Part shown: positions 13,909 through 58,462 of the stretch, in pieces | How positions within the stretch are numbered: position 1 is the stretch's first letter | Layout of the letters: the number at the start of each line of letters is the position of its first letter | Assembly: GCF_017357245.1 (NCBI RefSeq) | Contig: NZ_CP071612.1 | Location: 1,863,001 to 1,927,000, forward strand | DNA: 64,000 bases | Source of the DNA: Rhizobium bangladeshense | GTDB taxonomy: Bacteria; Pseudomonadota; Alphaproteobacteria; Rhizobiales; Rhizobiaceae | Direction: 5' to 3' | Notes under the pieces: generated by a model | Told to the model about the DNA's origin: nothing | Seen by the model: only the letters and a program-made list of their open reading frames with translations | Database searches by the model: none | Program-made: the position numbers and the translations under genes

Positions 13909-14862
13909 ATGCGCGTTTTGGTCATTGGAGCAACGGGCCATATCGGAACCTACCTCGTTCCTCGTCTGGTGGAGGCGGGTCACGACGTCGTGACGATCAG
14001 CCGCGGTGCTGCAACGCCTTATACGGCAAACCGCGCCTGGGCCTTCGTGGATCAGCGACAGATGGACCGGGTAGAGATGGAACGGAAGGGTGATTTCGGT
14101 CCGGCCGTGCGGGCTTTGAATGCCGATATCGTCATCGACATGATCTGCTTCACGCTGGAAAGCGCCGAGCAGTTGGTGACGGCCCTATCAGGGCATGTCG
14201 GCCATTTCCTCCATACCGGAACGATCTGGACACATGGATACCCGGTGGCTGTGCCAACGCGGGAGGAGGCGCCGAAGTCTCCCTTCGGAGACTATGGGAT
14301 CCAAAAGGCTGCGATCGAAGCCTATCTGCTGCAGCAGGCAAAGCTCCGGGGGTTTCCAGCGACCATCATCCATCCCGGCCACATTGTCGGCGAGGGATGG
14401 GCGCCGCTCAATCCGGCCGGCAATTTTAACCTGAACGTCTTTTCGACCCTTGCCCGCGGAGAGGCACTTGCGCTGCCCAATTTCGGCCTGGAGACCGTCC
14501 ACCACGTCCATGCAGACGACGTGGCGGCGATGTTTATGGATGCGATCTCCAATTGGAATGCAGCCACAGGTGAAAGCTTCCATGCGGTATCGGAGCAGGC
14601 GCTGACACTTCGCGGTTACGCCGAATCCATGTCGCTATGGTTCGGGAGGGACCCGAAGCTCACCTTCGCGCCGTTCGATGTCTGGGCGGAAGGCCAGACG
14701 GACGAGGACGCGAAGGCGACATGGGAGCATATTGCCCGCAGCCCCAACTGCTCGATCGCCAAAGCCCGGCGTCTGTTGGGCTACAGCCCGAGATATACGT
14801 CCCTGCAGGCCGTGCAGGAATCGGTCGGCTGGCTTGTCGGGCAGGGGCGGATAAAGACCTGA
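13909..14862 (+). CDS. NAD-dependent epimerase/dehydratase family protein
   Basis: 317 aa extended short-chain dehydrogenase fold. The N-terminal Rossmann motif is RVLVIGATGHIGTYL; the family usually has GxxGxxG, here GATGHIG. A catalytic Tyr/Lys pair is plausible at DYGIQKAAIEAYL. Substrate not identifiable; the pattern resembles atypical nucleotide-sugar epimerases and isoflavone-reductase-like proteins. The start at 13909 is set by GGGAGGGGAGACA; an ATG at 13888 would add seven residues. It converges on the glycerate kinase gene. Confidence 0.8.
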   Translation: MRVLVIGATGHIGTYLVPRLVEAGHDVVTISRGAATPYTANRAWAFVDQRQMDRVEMERKGDFGPAVRALNADIVIDMICFTLESAEQLVTALSGHVGHFLHTGTIWTHGYPVAVPTREEAPKSPFGDYGIQKAAIEAYLLQQAKLRGFPATIIHPGHIVGEGWAPLNPAGNFNLNVFSTLARGEALALPNFGLETVHHVHADDVAAMFMDAISNWNAATGESFHAVSEQALTLRGYAESMSLWFGRDPKLTFAPFDVWAEGQTDEDAKATWEHIARSPNCSIAKARRLLGYSPRYTSLQAVQESVGWLVGQGRIKT

Positions 14863-53766: not shown

Positions 53767-55200
53767 TCAGGCGCTTTCGGCAAACGTCGGCGTCTGACCG
53801 AGCCAGGCGGCGCAGTCTGCAAGCGCACGACGTGCGATCAACTGCCGCTTCATGATCGTTTTATCCTTGCCGCGGAAGCGCTTGACGCCCTCGGGTTTGA
53901 CGATTGAGCCGGGCTCAAGCTCTGGAAATAGCCCGAAATTGATGTTCATCGGCTGAAACGAGCGCTTGCCCGGTTCCTCGTCGGTGACGATGTGCCCGCC
54001 AGTGATATGGCCGAGCAGCGAACCGAGGGCTGTCGTAGCCGGCGGCAACGAGATCGCCTCGCCCTTACGTTCGGCGGCTGCGAAACGCCCCGCCATCAAC
54101 CCGACGCTGGCACTTTCCACATAACCCTCGCAGCCGGTGATCTGGCCGGCAAAGCGCAAGCCTGGCCGCGATTTCAGCGTCAGCGACGGGTCCAGCAATG
54201 TGGGAGAATTGATATAGGTGTTGCGATGCAGGCCGCCGAGGCGCGCGAATTCCGCATTTTCCAGCCCCGGAATCATCCGGAAGATTTCCGCCTGCGCGCC
54301 GTATTTCAATTTCGTCTGGAAACCGACCATGTTGTAGAGCGTTCCGAGCGCGTTGTCCTGCCGCAACTGCACGACCGCATAGGCCTTTACGGTTGGGTTA
54401 TGCGCGTTCGTCAGTCCCATCGGCTTCATCGGCCCGTGGCGCAGTGTCTCGCGACCGCGTTCAGCCATGACCTCGATCGGCAGGCAGCCGTCGAAATAAG
54501 GCGTGCCTTCCCATTCCTTGAAACCGACCGTGTCCCCCGATATCAGCGCATCGACGAAAGCATTGTACTGCGCTTCGTCCATCGGGCAGTTGATGTAATC
54601 CTTGCCCGTGCCGCCGGGGCCGACCTTGTCATAGCGCGACTGGTACCAGCAAATGTTCATGTCGATGCTGTCGCGGTAGACGATCGGCGCGATGGCATCG
54701 AAGAAAGCGAGCGAATCCTCGCCCGTTGCCGCCTGGATGGCGCTGGCGAGCGACGGCGCCGTCAGGGGCCCGGTGGCGACGATGGCGAGATCCCAGTCGC
54801 TTGGCGGCAGGCCGGTGATCTCTTCACGCATGACTGTGATAAGAGGGTGGTCGTGGATGGCGCGGGTCACGGCATCCGAGAAGCCGTCGCGATCGACGGC
54901 GAGCGCACCGCCGGCCGGTACCTGGTGGCGGTCGGCAGCGGCCATGATCAGCGAGCCCGCCATGCGCATTTCCGCGTGGATGACGCCGACGGCATTGCTG
55001 GTCGCATCGTCGGAACGGAAGGAATTGGAGCAGACGAGCTCGGCCAGACCGTCGGTCTTGTGCGCATCCGTGCCGCGCACGCCGCGCATTTCATGCAGAA
55101 TGACGGGAACGCCCGCACTGGCGATCTGCCAGGCGGCTTCCGAACCGGCAAGCCCGCCGCCGACAACGTGGATAGGGGAATAGGAGGAGATCGTGTTCAT
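53767..55200 (-). CDS. trmFO: Methylenetetrahydrofolate--tRNA-(uracil-5-)-methyltransferase TrmFO
   Basis: 477 aa FAD enzyme forming m5U54 in tRNA with methylenetetrahydrofolate. FAD motif [18 protein letters not shown], catalytic region [14 protein letters not shown] and QRDNALG-like [15 protein letters not shown], and the [16 protein letters not shown] motif are all typical. Present in Alphaproteobacteria in place of SAM-dependent TrmA. Confidence 0.95.
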
Positions 55201-55245
55201 TCCGGGCTGATATCATGTCGGCGGGTGCGATCCAACACCCCGGAA

Positions 55246-55272
55246 TCAAAAACGGCGCCCTGATGGCGCCGT
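55246..55272 (-). terminator. Intrinsic terminator after the first DUF1127 gene
   Basis: Minus strand ACGGCGCC, loop ATCAG, GGCGCCGT, then TTTTTG; about 30 nt after the stop codon. Confidence 0.85.
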
Positions 55273-55304
55273 CTTGAAGCATCGTGCCGTCACCAGGTCC
55301 GCAA

Positions 55305-55448
55305 TTAGCGGAACGAGCGGGATGCGATGTTGCGGATGTCGTAGCGGCTAACGCCGATATCGGACAGGGTCTGGTTCGACAGGCTGCCGAGCTCGTTGAG
55401 CGTGCGGCGGTAGCTGAGCCAGCTTTTTGCAATGCGGATCGGATTCAT
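55305..55448 (-). CDS. DUF1127 small basic protein (first copy)
   Basis: 47 aa, too short for routine gene lists. MNPIRIAKSWLSYRRTLNEL, then LSNQTLSDIGVSRYDIRNIA and an Arg-rich end (SRSFR): the DUF1127 helix-turn-helix-like fold. AGGAAG lies 8 nt before the ATG at 55448. DUF1127 proteins in Rhodobacter (CcaF1) and Brucella bind RNA or affect metabolism and stress. Minus strand, in the same orientation as the sRNA and the second copy; separate terminators. Confidence 0.9.
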   Translation of the reverse strand: MNPIRIAKSWLSYRRTLNELGSLSNQTLSDIGVSRYDIRNIASRSFR

Positions 55449-55513
55449 TGTCATCTTCCTCGAACAAATGTCCGCGGGACGGCGGGATCGCCTGTCTCTC
55501 TGCGGTTGATGTC

Positions 55514-55577
55514 TATATAGGCGATGTCGGTCCGATTGTGCAGTGCAAATAAGAGGCGTCTGCCATGCAATTGTGCA
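55514..55577 (-). promoter_or_regulatory. Promoter region of the first DUF1127 gene with repeated TGCACAAT
   Basis: Minus strand: TGCACAAT at 55570-55577 and again at 55535-55542, 35 nt apart, upstream of a -10-like TATATA at 55514-55519. Related sequences (ATTGTGTAAAGCATTGCACAG) lie upstream of the second DUF1127 gene near 56018-56040. These may be LysR-type sites, as for VtlR/LsrB, which activates DUF1127 genes in Brucella and Agrobacterium; that assignment is inference. Confidence 0.4.
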
Positions 55578-55671
55578 CTACGATGCTCGCAAATTGAGCG
55601 GTGAATACTTTTTAAGCGAGCGATAGAGCTGAGAAAACAGCAACCGGAGCGGCAGTGGATTGCTTGCAAAA

Positions 55672-55703
55672 GAAAACGCCCGCTGTGGTGCAGCGGGCGT
55701 TTA
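55672..55703 (-). terminator. Intrinsic terminator after the second DUF1127 gene
   Basis: Minus strand AACGCCCGCTG, loop CACCA, CAGCGGGCGTT, then TTCTTTTG; about 45 nt after the stop. Confidence 0.8.
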
Positions 55704-55747
55704 AATCATTGACGATCTGCTTGGGAGAAAGCAGCGACCGCCTTGAA

Positions 55748-55894
55748 TTAGCGGGAGGAAGCCTCACGGGCAACGCGATGGATGTCCGAACGGTCGATGC
55801 CGAGGTCATGCAATTCGCGGTTGGTCATGCGACCGAGTTCCGTAACGGTCTGACGATACTTGCGCCAGTTGTTAAAAGAGCGAGTGATGTTCAT
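55748..55894 (-). CDS. DUF1127 small basic protein (second copy)
   Basis: 48 aa. MNITRSFNNWRKYRQTVTEL, then MTNRELHDLGIDRSDIHRVA and EASSR. Highly similar in plan to the first copy, with the conserved GI-x-R-x-DI segment, but sharing only part of the sequence. AAGGGG lies 7 nt before the ATG. It lies 440 nt downstream of the cuckoo-type sRNA on the same strand. Confidence 0.92.
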   Translation of the reverse strand: MNITRSFNNWRKYRQTVTELGRMTNRELHDLGIDRSDIHRVAREASSR

Positions 55895-56333
55895 GTTAAG
55901 CCCCTTTCCGAGGGTTTGATCTGCCAGCAGCCACCGATCGGCGCTGACCTCTATTTGATGGCTGGAATATATGTTGCGGCGCGAAGAACGAAAACAGCCA
56001 AGTTTTCAAGTCACCCATGCAAGCTGTGCAATGCTTTACACAATATTACCGCATTTTGATCAACGAATAGGCAAAAGAAATTGGTGGAAGATTCTACGTT
56101 TTCTCGTGCTCACTCTCGTTGCGGTAGGCAAAGCTGCCTCTCCGGCGGATCGAGTCGATGGGGTTTAGCGCCGAAGCGCCAAGCAACTCATTTATCTCAC
56201 GCCGCCGAAGCGAGTGATCGCGATACGGTGCCACGGCTTCATGCGGCGGCCGTCACGTCAGGTGGCCTCGCTTTGCGAGCAGCACTGCGGCGCCGATAAC
56301 GATAAGTTGTTGAATCCCAGGCCGTCCATTCGT
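55895..56333. other. Intergenic region between the second DUF1127 gene and the sRNA
   Basis: 440 bp without a supported gene. On the minus strand a -10-like TATATT at about 55970 lies some 70 nt before the DUF1127 start; the TGCACA-like elements near 56020-56040 lie upstream of it. The short plus-strand ORF 56081-56299 has no ribosome site and unlikely composition. Confidence 0.5.
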
Positions 56334-56450
56334 CAATAAAACGCCCGCCGGGGGAGGATCCGGCGGGCGCATTATACTGACTGGCAACTGGGAGGAGGAG
56401 TGTTGCCAGTCTATCGCAGCGCGCTTGGGAGGAGGAGTGCGCAGCCGCGA
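56334..56450 (-). ncRNA. Cuckoo-type (alpha-r14-like) small RNA with CUCCUCCUCCC loops
   Basis: Minus-strand RNA with two hairpins whose loops each carry CUCCUCCUCCC: 56421-56442 (stem GCGC/GCGC) and 56381-56409 (8-bp stem CTGGCAAC/GTTGCCAG). A perfect 10-bp intrinsic terminator (CGCCCGCCGG/CCGGCGGGCG, 56342-56369) follows, ending in GTTTTATTG. The repeated anti-Shine-Dalgarno loops and terminator are the hallmark of cuckoo RNAs in Rhodobacter (CcsR) and alpha-r14 RNAs in rhizobia. About 117 nt. The 5' end is not certain; no clear promoter was identified. Confidence 0.8.
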
Positions 56451-56780
56451 ATCTCGTCACGAACAAAAGCATCCGTGGGCGTCCGGAAAACCGGGCCGGG
56501 GCGCCATCCCCGTGCTTCGATAGATCGGTAAATAATATGACTAATCATTTTTTTGCAGTGCAATAAATACATGAGAGGTATGCGAAATGAGCATGCGTCT
56601 CCCTTTGTATGCTCATATTAGCGCTTCCGACGTTAGCGGTCGGTTAACGTCTGACCCAAATTAGACCAATGAGGAATTTGCAGTCTATCGCCGGGATGGC
56701 GTTTGCGAAGCCGCCTGCTGCGGCTATAACGACGGAAGCCGAAGCGCCGGAACGAGCGTCACGGAAATGAGGAGTGAGGC
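56451..56780. other. Intergenic region between the sRNA and the DUF2157 gene
   Basis: 330 bp. It should contain the divergent promoters of the sRNA (minus) and the DUF2157 gene (plus). Notable: an inverted repeat AATGAGCAT (56586-56594) / ATGCTCATaTT (56609-56619), and TTAGCGGTCGGTTAAC (56633-56648), one mismatch from a CtrA site (TTAA-N7-TTAA). Confidence 0.4.
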
Positions 56781-57875
56781 ATGTATCGCGGCAGATTGGA
56801 GCGGGATCTCTCGCTCTGGGTGGGAAAGGGGCTGATTGGAGAGGAAACCGCCGGCGCGCTTCTCGCCGAATATGATAGCCGCCCGGCAAGCTTCAGCCTC
56901 GGCCGGGTGCTGATGGCGCTGGCGGCGGTGCTGCTTGCCGCGGCCGTCTTGCTGGTCGTCGCGTCCAACTGGGAGGCCATTCCGCGCCTCGTCCGCGTCG
57001 GCGCTATCCTCACCCTGATTTGGATTGTACACATTGCCGCCGCCATGATGCTTGCCCGCGGTGCGACAGCGGCCGCAAGCGGGTTGCTGGTCATCGGGGC
57101 AATGAGCTTCGGTGGCGCCATCTCGCTGGTCGGGCAAATGTATCATCTCTCGGGCGACGAGCAGACCGTGATGTATCTCTGGTTCGCGATTGCCACGATC
57201 TCGGCGATCCTGTTCCGTTCGGGCGCCGTTGTCGTCGTCGCAGGCTTTCTCTCCTGGGCGTCGTTCGCCGTCTATCTCGAGAACCACGAGACGCATTGGA
57301 TCGGGTTTGATCCCTGGATGGCGCCGATCATGGCGGTGATGACAATCGCGCTGGTGCGTTATACCGGTGCCGAGCGGGCCCGTCATCTCGCCTACTTGCT
57401 GCTGGTCGGCTGGCTCGCCTGGCTCTACACGCTTTATGAGGAGATCGCCGTGGCGCTCGCCTTCGCAATCGGCGGTATGGCGGCCTTCGCGCTAACGGCT
57501 TTGCCGCACCCTCGTATCGCTTCGCTGATGAGAAGTGCCGGCGCAGCGCCGGCTTTCTACAGCTTCGTCGTCGCCGTAATCGGCTTGCTGCTGCTGCATA
57601 TCGAGATTGAGCAAGGCTGGCGGCTGGTGGTGCTCGGCGTGGCGACGCTCGCCGCTGCCGTGCTGGCGATCGCTCTACATGGCAGGGATAACGGCGCGGT
57701 GCGTTATCTCGCCTATACGACCTTTGCCGTGGAGATGCTCTATCTCGCCTCCGTCACCGTCGGCTCGATCCTCGGCACGTCGAGTCTCTTCTTGTTCTCC
57801 GGTCTCGTGGTGGCGCTCGTCGCCTGGCTCGTCATTCGTCTCGAGCGGCGCTTTTCGCGGGAGGCGCGCGCATGA
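56781..57875 (+). CDS. DUF2157 multi-pass membrane protein
   Basis: 364 aa. N-terminal soluble part (LERDLSLWVGKGLIGEETAGA, the DUF2157 domain), then about ten membrane segments (LAAVLLAAAVLLVVASNWEAI, VLAIALHGRDNGAVRYLAYT and others), ending in a basic tail. The partner gene with a GDYXXLXY domain overlaps its stop by 4 bp, a pairing found widely in bacteria. Function unknown; an envelope role is likely. Confidence 0.9.
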   Translation: MYRGRLERDLSLWVGKGLIGEETAGALLAEYDSRPASFSLGRVLMALAAVLLAAAVLLVVASNWEAIPRLVRVGAILTLIWIVHIAAAMMLARGATAAASGLLVIGAMSFGGAISLVGQMYHLSGDEQTVMYLWFAIATISAILFRSGAVVVVAGFLSWASFAVYLENHETHWIGFDPWMAPIMAVMTIALVRYTGAERARHLAYLLLVGWLAWLYTLYEEIAVALAFAIGGMAAFALTALPHPRIASLMRSAGAAPAFYSFVVAVIGLLLLHIEIEQGWRLVVLGVATLAAAVLAIALHGRDNGAVRYLAYTTFAVEMLYLASVTVGSILGTSSLFLFSGLVVALVAWLVIRLERRFSREARA

Positions 57876-58462
57876 GTTCGTTGATGGCTAGGCTGCAATC
57901 CGGCAAAGGATATCTGATTTCGGCGATCATCGTCGCCGGCTTGCAGTCGGTGATCCTCGGCACGATGATCCAGAGCCGTGCATCGATCCTCAGCAGCGGC
58001 GCTGAGGTCCTGCTGAAGACCGCCCCGGTTGACCCGCGGGATTTCCTGCGCGGTGATTATGTCGTGTTGAATTACGACATTTCCGCCGTGCCGGTGCAGA
58101 CGGTCTCCGGCGGCATTCCCGCTGAACCCGGCGAACACACCCTGTGGGTCCGATTGAAGAGGCAGGTGGACGGTTTCTGGACGGTGAGCGAATCGTCTTT
58201 CCAGGCGCTGCCGCCGCAGCCGGAGACGGTGATCCTGCGCAGCCAGCCTTTCTATAGTGGCGGGCTCGCGGCCGGCGGCAGCATCCGCGTCGAATACGGC
58301 ATCGAGCGCTATTACGTTCCGGAAGGTCAGGGCAAACCGATTGAGGAGGCACGCAATGATGGCAACGTCGCCATAGCGGTGCGGGTCTCGCCAGACGGAA
58401 GCGCGCAGATACGCAGCCTGCTCGTCGACGGCAAGCCGGTTTACGACGAACCGCTTTATTGA
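57872..58462 (+). CDS. GDYXXLXY-domain membrane protein
   Basis: 196 aa. One N-terminal membrane anchor (LISAIIVAGLQSVILGTMI), then a periplasmic domain with the name-giving motif in FLRGDYVVLNYDIS and a second conserved segment RVEYGIERYYVPEGQGKPIE. It overlaps the DUF2157 gene by ATGA, so the two are translated together and probably form a complex. Function unknown. Confidence 0.92.
   Translation: MSSLMARLQSGKGYLISAIIVAGLQSVILGTMIQSRASILSSGAEVLLKTAPVDPRDFLRGDYVVLNYDISAVPVQTVSGGIPAEPGEHTLWVRLKRQVDGFWTVSESSFQALPPQPETVILRSQPFYSGGLAAGGSIRVEYGIERYYVPEGQGKPIEEARNDGNVAIAVRVSPDGSAQIRSLLVDGKPVYDEPLY

Follow-up and report, generated by a model that had tools for sequence, protein, structure and literature searches.

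The founding member of the ar14 family of small RNAs (sRNAs) is NfeR1 of Sinorhizobium meliloti, which pairs at ntrB through anti-Shine-Dalgarno (anti-SD) loops and is activated by LsrB through a TGCA-N6-GCAT site in its promoter (PMC10746234). An NtrC site, TGC-N11-GCA, also belongs to this promoter type. Three hairpins with CCUCCUCCC in each loop characterize the family, the transcripts of which are about 123 nt long and Hfq-independent. In Rhodobacter sphaeroides, sRNAs with such loops are part of the CcaF1-CcsR1-4 operon, in which a short DUF1127 gene comes first and four sRNAs follow on one transcript under an RpoHI/RpoHII promoter; CcaF1 binds RNA (PMC12501420, PMC10253847) and affects the processing of the CcsR RNAs (PMC10253847). 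Short DUF1127 genes with cuckoo RNAs also make up the CIN1 locus (Reinkensmeier and Giegerich 2015, via PMC10253847). RNA binding versus sensor kinase binding by DUF1127 proteins is described as an unresolved puzzle in PMC12501420: the sensor kinase PhoR is a binding partner of E. coli YjiS and of the short DUF1127 proteins of Agrobacterium, and Salmonella YjiS was not found to bind RNA. In Brucella, DUF1127 genes are activated by VtlR (PMC12595884).

Here we describe a locus in a 64,000-nucleotide stretch of Rhizobium bangladeshense DNA (NZ_CP071612.1; hereafter the window) in which an sRNA, two DUF1127 genes (#1 and #2) and a trmFO-like gene follow one another on the minus strand (Table 1). 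As in CIN1, a short DUF1127 gene lies beside a cuckoo RNA; going by the second-hand description of CIN1, the window adds an sRNA-first order and a probable reduced sRNA copy in a 3'UTR. The sRNA shares with NfeR1 the Rfam family, three hairpins, anti-SD loops and a near-match to the LsrB box, but differs in a shortened loop 3, one mismatch in the box, an extra TGC-N3-GCA dyad and the adjacent DUF1127 genes, and any of the five ar14 copies of its own genome is a candidate ortholog of NfeR1. Compared with the Rhodobacter operon, the window has the same kind of short DUF1127 gene and CCUCCUCCC-loop sRNA but a different layout: the sRNA comes first and, with its own terminator and promoter-like block, appears to be a separate unit rather than one co-transcribed behind a DUF1127 gene. 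Likeness to the Agrobacterium and VtlR-controlled Brucella genes extends to short PF06568 proteins and a VtlR-type box before DUF1127 #1; DUF1127 #2 has no exact VtlR-type box, and PhoR binding and VtlR control are candidate properties here. We consider it likely that the locus is a chromosomal CIN1, that is, an ar14/NfeR1-family anti-SD sRNA and short DUF1127 proteins forming one stress-response module descended by duplication, loss and decay.

Table 1. Features of the sRNA-DUF1127 locus and its flanks, in window coordinates.
Feature	Position	Strand	Evidence
trmFO-like gene (GidA family), conserved downstream neighbour, marks the syntenic place	53767..55200	-	PF01134 329.8 bits, synteny
DUF1127 #2, 49 aa	55305..55454	-	PF06568 50.2 bits, cut-off 23.3
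DUF1127 #2 promoter-like block	55515..55577	-	Alignment of 16 chosen sequences
Probable reduced ar14 copy, overlaps the end of DUF1127 #1 and forms its 3'UTR	55671..55775	-	Model R1 32.7 bits
DUF1127 #1, 48 aa	55748..55894	-	PF06568 59.3 bits, cut-off 23.3
DUF1127 #1 upstream: LsrB-type box TGCACAGCTTGCAT (56017-56030) overlapping VtlR-type box GCATGGGTGACTT (56008-56020)	56008..56030	-	
ar14/NfeR1-type (cuckoo) sRNA core, three hairpins	56336..56455	-	RF02344 109.9 bits, fold z -7.64, motif positions
sRNA promoter-like block	56530..56593	-	Alignment of 22 chosen sequences
DUF2157 and GDYXXLXY genes, divergent neighbours; tig further out	56781..58462	+	Pfam, synteny

An ar14-family sRNA beside two DUF1127 genes

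The Rfam model of the ar14 (NfeR1/cuckoo) family, RF02344, matches the sRNA over model positions 1-123 (E 2e-19, gathering score 58.8), and both short proteins exceed the PF06568 cut-off. The predicted fold has three hairpins (-61.8 kcal/mol), and none of 200 shuffles was equally stable. The motif CTCCTCCTCCC occupies the loops at 56390-56400 and 56427-56437 (minus strand), and a third, shortened copy, ATCCTCCC, lies at 56352-56359 inside the terminator loop; the anti-SD loops accordingly read CUCCUCCUCCC, CUCCUCCUCCC and, in the terminator, AUCCUCCC, with loops 1 and 2 complete by the family definition and loop 3 shortened to UCCUCCC. All 26 ar14 sequences of our choosing have CCTCCTCCC unchanged in both of the first two loops and TCCTCCC unchanged in the third, and double changes occur in 20 of the 24 predicted pairs of a consensus that comprises hairpin 2 and the terminator and leaves out hairpin 1. 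An earlier note on this DNA had proposed a cuckoo-type sRNA with two anti-SD loops beside two DUF1127 genes, overlooking the third loop, and had named a covariance-model search and loop conservation as checks; the sRNA passes both, given its RF02344 score and given loop motifs that stay constant among relatives whose hairpin 2 and terminator stems vary with pairing retained.

The same note had drawn a parallel to the Rhodobacter cuckoo RNAs, which holds for the kind of RNA but not for the family model, the Rfam CcsR1 model (RF02791) reaching 36.9 bits at 56373-56453 against a gathering score of 65.3. A class-level search with RF02344 under stricter filters (15/289 genomes) returned only the window's own match above the cut-off. 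As the conserved promoter-like block lies at 56530-56593, a primary transcript near 185-190 nt would be expected before processing, longer than both the 110-130 nt proposed earlier and the length typical of ar14 transcripts.

A terminator scan placed sites at 56341-56370 after the sRNA and at 55674-55702 after DUF1127 #1, which agrees with the proposal that the elements are separately terminated; overall, however, its three sites are not above chance (shuffles 2.2, s.d. 1.3), and it flagged none 3' of DUF1127 #2, where GGCGCC...GGCGCC and a T run can be seen by eye. Several GGAGG-type ribosome sites had also been claimed for the window, a claim that proved weak: exact GGGAGGAGG occurs outside the sRNA at a single site in the whole window, 14261-14269 (plus strand), and GGAGG, AGGAG or GAGGA stands ahead of the assumed start in 4 of 49 model open reading frames (ORFs), a set in which starts are crude and some members are surely not genes. 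Duplexes predicted between sRNA loops 1/2 and start regions reach -9.1/-9.9 kcal/mol for DUF1127 #1 and -13.7/-10.2 kcal/mol for DUF1127 #2; these values lie near or are weaker than the model-ORF median of -12.1 kcal/mol, so we do not favour the view that the sRNA represses the DUF1127 genes directly. The strongest predicted loop 1/2 duplexes among the model ORFs fall on the divergent neighbours DUF2157 and GDYXXLXY (56781 and 57872, plus strand; -23.6 and -25.3 kcal/mol), and conservation of the DUF2157 site is not apparent by eye in an alignment of 22 chosen sequences.

Linkage and gene order in Rhizobiaceae

Our linkage survey covered 61 genomes from 60 genera of Rhizobiaceae, 60 with ar14 and 59 with DUF1127. 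Among the matches listed, 90 of 150 ar14 copies lie less than 1 kb from a DUF1127 gene (0.2 expected), 89 of them on the same strand, and 50 of the 55 genomes to which the listed ar14 matches belong contain linked pairs; some of the other 60 copies may have a DUF1127 neighbour beyond these matches. Owing to shared descent, with 46 clusters at one place, the 90 linked copies do not amount to 90 independent events. A conserved link between ar14 and DUF1127 in Rhizobiaceae is supported, which bears out in part the functional pairing of DUF1127 proteins and anti-SD RNAs suggested earlier for rhizobia, but the association itself is already in print as the CIN1 locus (PMC10253847).

The genome to which the window belongs contains five ar14 copies alongside seven DUF1127 genes. 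Two of the five copies adjoin DUF1127, namely the window copy and one on contig C3, and three are without DUF1127 within 1 kb. In the C3 pair (L051, G000:C3:396076-396536), the DUF1127 gene comes first and the gap is 207 nt; together with similar pairs in L058, L063, L080 and L099 (gaps of 219-311 nt), it suggests that both genes can be copied together. Four tandem ar14 copies, 5-16 nt apart, stand behind a single DUF1127 gene in L071 and L078 and resemble the CcsR1-4 array. The small genomes G006 (1.1 Mb) and G044 (1.5 Mb) still match ar14 (61.7 bits and E 4.5e-7, respectively); among the matches listed, G006 has one DUF1127 gene, on another contig, and G044 none.

For synteny we used 62 clusters selected for having both partners. 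Among the matches listed, 46 of them lie 5' of trmFO on the trmFO strand, 45 of these also with tig, DUF2157 or GDYXXLXY; one further cluster, on a contig that stops early, has the tig-side flank only, and 15 have neither flank. The 46 trmFO-side clusters comprise 33 that are DUF1127-first and 13 that are sRNA-first, the plain D-R arrangement (D, DUF1127; R, sRNA) being the commonest with 14 cases. The window itself reads R-D-r-D, with r for the probable reduced copy. Between the two orders stand D-R-D-R (L110), D-R-D-D (L098, L061), R-D-R-D (L070) and R-D-R-D-D (L074), which look like steps from one to the other. A quick 52-row TrmFO tree, with weak support for 20 of its 49 inner branches, contains a clade of 16 rows (SH-aLRT 95) that is sRNA-first throughout. 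The five loci with these arrangements group weakly with it, as do, less in keeping with a series of steps, L060 (D-R-R) and L101 (D-R). Outside the clade, the sRNA-first order is found in L052, L070 and L074. Of these, L052 (genome G002; R-D-D-D, three DUF1127 genes) is placed away from the clade, so that the order may have arisen repeatedly, or the branch is misplaced.

The sRNA-first order of the window probably goes back to a duplicated DUF1127-sRNA unit minus its leading protein gene, and the simplest reading of the arrangements would be that such a unit was duplicated, after which the first DUF1127 gene was lost and the second sRNA decayed. Under this preferred reading, a DUF1127-ar14 unit upstream of trmFO, present in many Rhizobiaceae genera, would have been the ancestor; after its duplication, loss of the leading DUF1127 gene would have turned the first sRNA into an independent gene, and the second sRNA would have shrunk into the 3'UTR of DUF1127 #1. 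At 11 loci, the leader that separates the promoter from the sRNA was translated in three frames and inspected by eye, and no DUF1127 remnants were visible. The earlier description of the protein genes as duplicated holds in that there are two of them and needs refining in that they look like remains of a multi-copy DUF1127-sRNA array. Overall, the comparison of loci supports protein and sRNA staying together, with similar upstream boxes, through local rearrangement.

A probable sRNA relic in the 3'UTR of DUF1127 #1

The 3'UTR of DUF1127 #1 looks like the second sRNA in reduced form. It consists of a hairpin with the loop region TTCTCCC (55723-55729) and the terminator mentioned above, and the fold of 55669-55750 has a z of -5.26. 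A covariance model built from the 26 chosen ar14 sequences, R1, gives this element 32.7 bits against 110.8 for the real ar14 copy, reaches 36.5 bits at the corresponding place in the same-genus locus L081 and scores 20 bits or more there in 35 of 80 named relatives, which are the sequences retained at 73-100 % identity to DUF1127 #1; behind DUF1127 #2 it finds nothing at an E of 1 or below. The Rfam ar14 model yields 28.5 bits (E 0.0057) against its gathering score of 58.8, and we therefore term the element ar14-like rather than a member of ar14. Stronger evidence for a reduced copy than the bit scores comes from the loop counts: in fold tests, 42 of the 80 3'UTRs place CTCCC within a hairpin loop (38 place CCTCCC there), compared with 0-5 in ten rounds of shuffling and 0 of 54 behind DUF1127 #2. 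The window carries one change in this loop, UCUCCC for CCUCCC. Because RNAalifold recovered only the terminator from the 3'UTR set, the loop hairpin rests on single-sequence folds, not covariation.

Alternatively, the 3'UTR could be an ordinary hairpin-terminator that resembles ar14 by convergence, which we regard as rather improbable without being negligible. Its score is far below that of the real copy, and in control searches with R1 an antisense match in L097 reached 32.8 bits by way of its terminator and a match elsewhere, in L154, 23.8 bits. Unrelated Rfam families score similarly at the element, anti-hemB with 27.7 bits (E 0.00057, better than ar14) and rnk_leader with 27.9 bits, and the loop is absent in 38 of the 80 sequences, among them R. 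tropici-type relatives and some loci situated elsewhere. Convergence would, however, leave the loop counts to be explained, and it fits poorly with the complete ar14 copies directly 3' of the corresponding DUF1127 gene in L070 and L074 and with two Sinorhizobium sequences that retain ACCTCCC in the terminator loop instead of the hairpin loop. The L097 match itself (L097:2755-2866, minus strand) is antisense to a true ar14 end and contains CUUCCUCC ahead of the terminator that both share; it may represent a facing transcript that uses the same terminator.

In the literature searched, which covered CIN1 through PMC10253847, we found neither the sRNA-first order nor the 3'UTR element nor the shared boxes described below. 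Derivation of the sRNA-first order from a duplicated unit and a reduced sRNA in the DUF1127 #1 3'UTR are possibly new.

Upstream boxes and a possible common response

A sigma-70 scan of 55100-56900 gave no site (shuffles 0.9), so the predicted promoters rest on conserved footprints, which we compared with an LsrB-type motif from PMC10746234 and a VtlR-type motif from PMC7486931. Upstream of the sRNA are a near-box, TGCTCATTTCGCAT (56580-56593, minus strand), with one mismatch to TGCA-N6-GCAT, a dyad within TTGCACTGCAAAA (56551-56563, minus strand) and a -10-like TATTAT (56532-56537). The DUF1127 #2 block contains a shorter variant box, TGCACAATTGCAT (55565-55577), a dyad, TTGCACTGCACAA (55536-55548), and CTGCAC-N17-CTATAT (55515-55543), such that a TGC-N3-GCA dyad precedes both the sRNA and DUF1127 #2. 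Across sRNA-first loci, the first sRNA is preceded by TGCR-N5/6-GCAT in 11 of 13 (shuffles 0.65), the first DUF1127 gene in 12 of 13 (0.55) and the second DUF1127 gene in 10 of 12 (0.63), and this motif is present in 26 of 49 DUF1127-first loci (2.7 expected); the exact TGCA-N6-GCAT is found in 6 of the 13 sRNA-first loci. The pattern TTGCRYTGCAMAA precedes the sRNA in 11 of 13 (shuffles 0.00), the first DUF1127 gene in 2 of 13 and the second in 5 of 12, and VtlR-type boxes are confined to the first DUF1127 gene (8 of 13; sRNA 0 of 13, second DUF1127 gene 0 of 12). Elsewhere in the own genome, three other ar14 copies (C3, C1:4302648 and C1:452212) have an exact VtlR-type box within 260 nt upstream, and the latter two also an exact TGCA-N6-GCAT read by eye.

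Wherever both box and dyad precede the sRNA, which is the case in ten sRNA-first loci and in 12 chosen named relatives, they start 31 nt apart. We rejected the idea that they are simply the retained promoter of the old operon, as the 31-nt spacing occurs in only 2 of 49 DUF1127-first loci; in 19 of those 49 the dyad starts 5 nt ahead of the box. LysR-type sites have a two half-site layout. With a spacing of three helical turns, the dyad would also suit such a regulator, and candidates for it are therefore the second half of a LysR-type site or a PhaR/AniA operator. The 21-position operator consensus WNWD2NYGCRNYGCRNH2WNW, described in S. meliloti (PMC12542648), matches exactly before the sRNA and in its core only before DUF1127 #2; the motif alone is not rare, given 26 exact matches in 398,276 bases (62 loci, both strands). 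The pattern TTGCRCTGCAMAA has four sites in the genome, two of them in the sRNA-DUF1127 locus, and its reversed control pattern one. An AniA dyad is also mentioned, at second hand, for the mmgR promoter.

With separate promoter-like blocks now in place, the units are probably still co-induced, each being preceded by LsrB/VtlR-type boxes or near-boxes, and the sRNA and DUF1127 #2 have the dyad in addition. The LsrB regulon varies, as conflicting reports on its control of the AbcR sRNAs in S. meliloti indicate (PMC7486931 vs PMC10746234). By analogy with NfeR1, the sRNA would most likely repress translation, its CUCCUCC loops pairing with the ribosome-binding sites of transporter and nitrogen-control mRNAs; by analogy with the Agrobacterium, Brucella and Rhodobacter proteins, the DUF1127 proteins would most likely tune the same response by acting on a partner such as PhoR, on RNA turnover or on both. 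A bolder and distinctly less probable extension holds that the DUF1127 #1 mRNA has a dual function, encoding the small protein and acting in trans through the single anti-SD loop of a reduced cuckoo RNA in its 3'UTR, that LsrB (redox/nitrogen) controls the sRNA and both DUF1127 genes with PhaR (carbon storage) on the sRNA and DUF1127 #2, and that regulon-level coupling has replaced the operon.

A serious competitor to this common response, to which we give somewhat less than an even chance, is that the linkage reflects inherited synteny alone, with the sRNA acting alone like NfeR1, the DUF1127 proteins alone on PhoR and no functional link between them. One syntenic place does account for 46 of the 62 clusters among the matches listed, three of the five own-genome ar14 copies stand without DUF1127, and the short Agrobacterium proteins act via PhoR (PMC12501420); inherited synteny sits less easily with the 15 clusters among the matches listed without trmFO-side and tig-side flanks, with the retention of both partners through changes in order and with the similar boxes across units. 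Less probable again is a CcaF1-like module, in which the ar14 RNA would be bound by the DUF1127 proteins and guided by them to maturation or decay, in the way that CcaF1 with RNase E acts on CcsR1-4. Such a role would match what is reported for CcaF1 (PMC10253847), and DUF1127-sRNA spacings of 5-40 nt in many relatives fit a single processed transcript, but the promoter-like block and terminator of the window sRNA would make processing from a DUF1127 transcript needless, and Salmonella YjiS reportedly showed no RNA binding (PMC12501420). Our confidences in these alternatives overlap with that in the chromosomal CIN1 module and are not meant to sum to one.

Under the preferred reading of one module descended by duplication, loss and decay, the protein and sRNA genes of the window are seemingly uncoupled yet adjacent and preceded by similar boxes, so that each would be more easily removed alone than in the one-transcript operon of Rhodobacter. 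Should the 3'UTR element prove to be a genuine relic, the gradation between a full sRNA and an mRNA tail with a single loop would show how an sRNA gene can sink into an mRNA.
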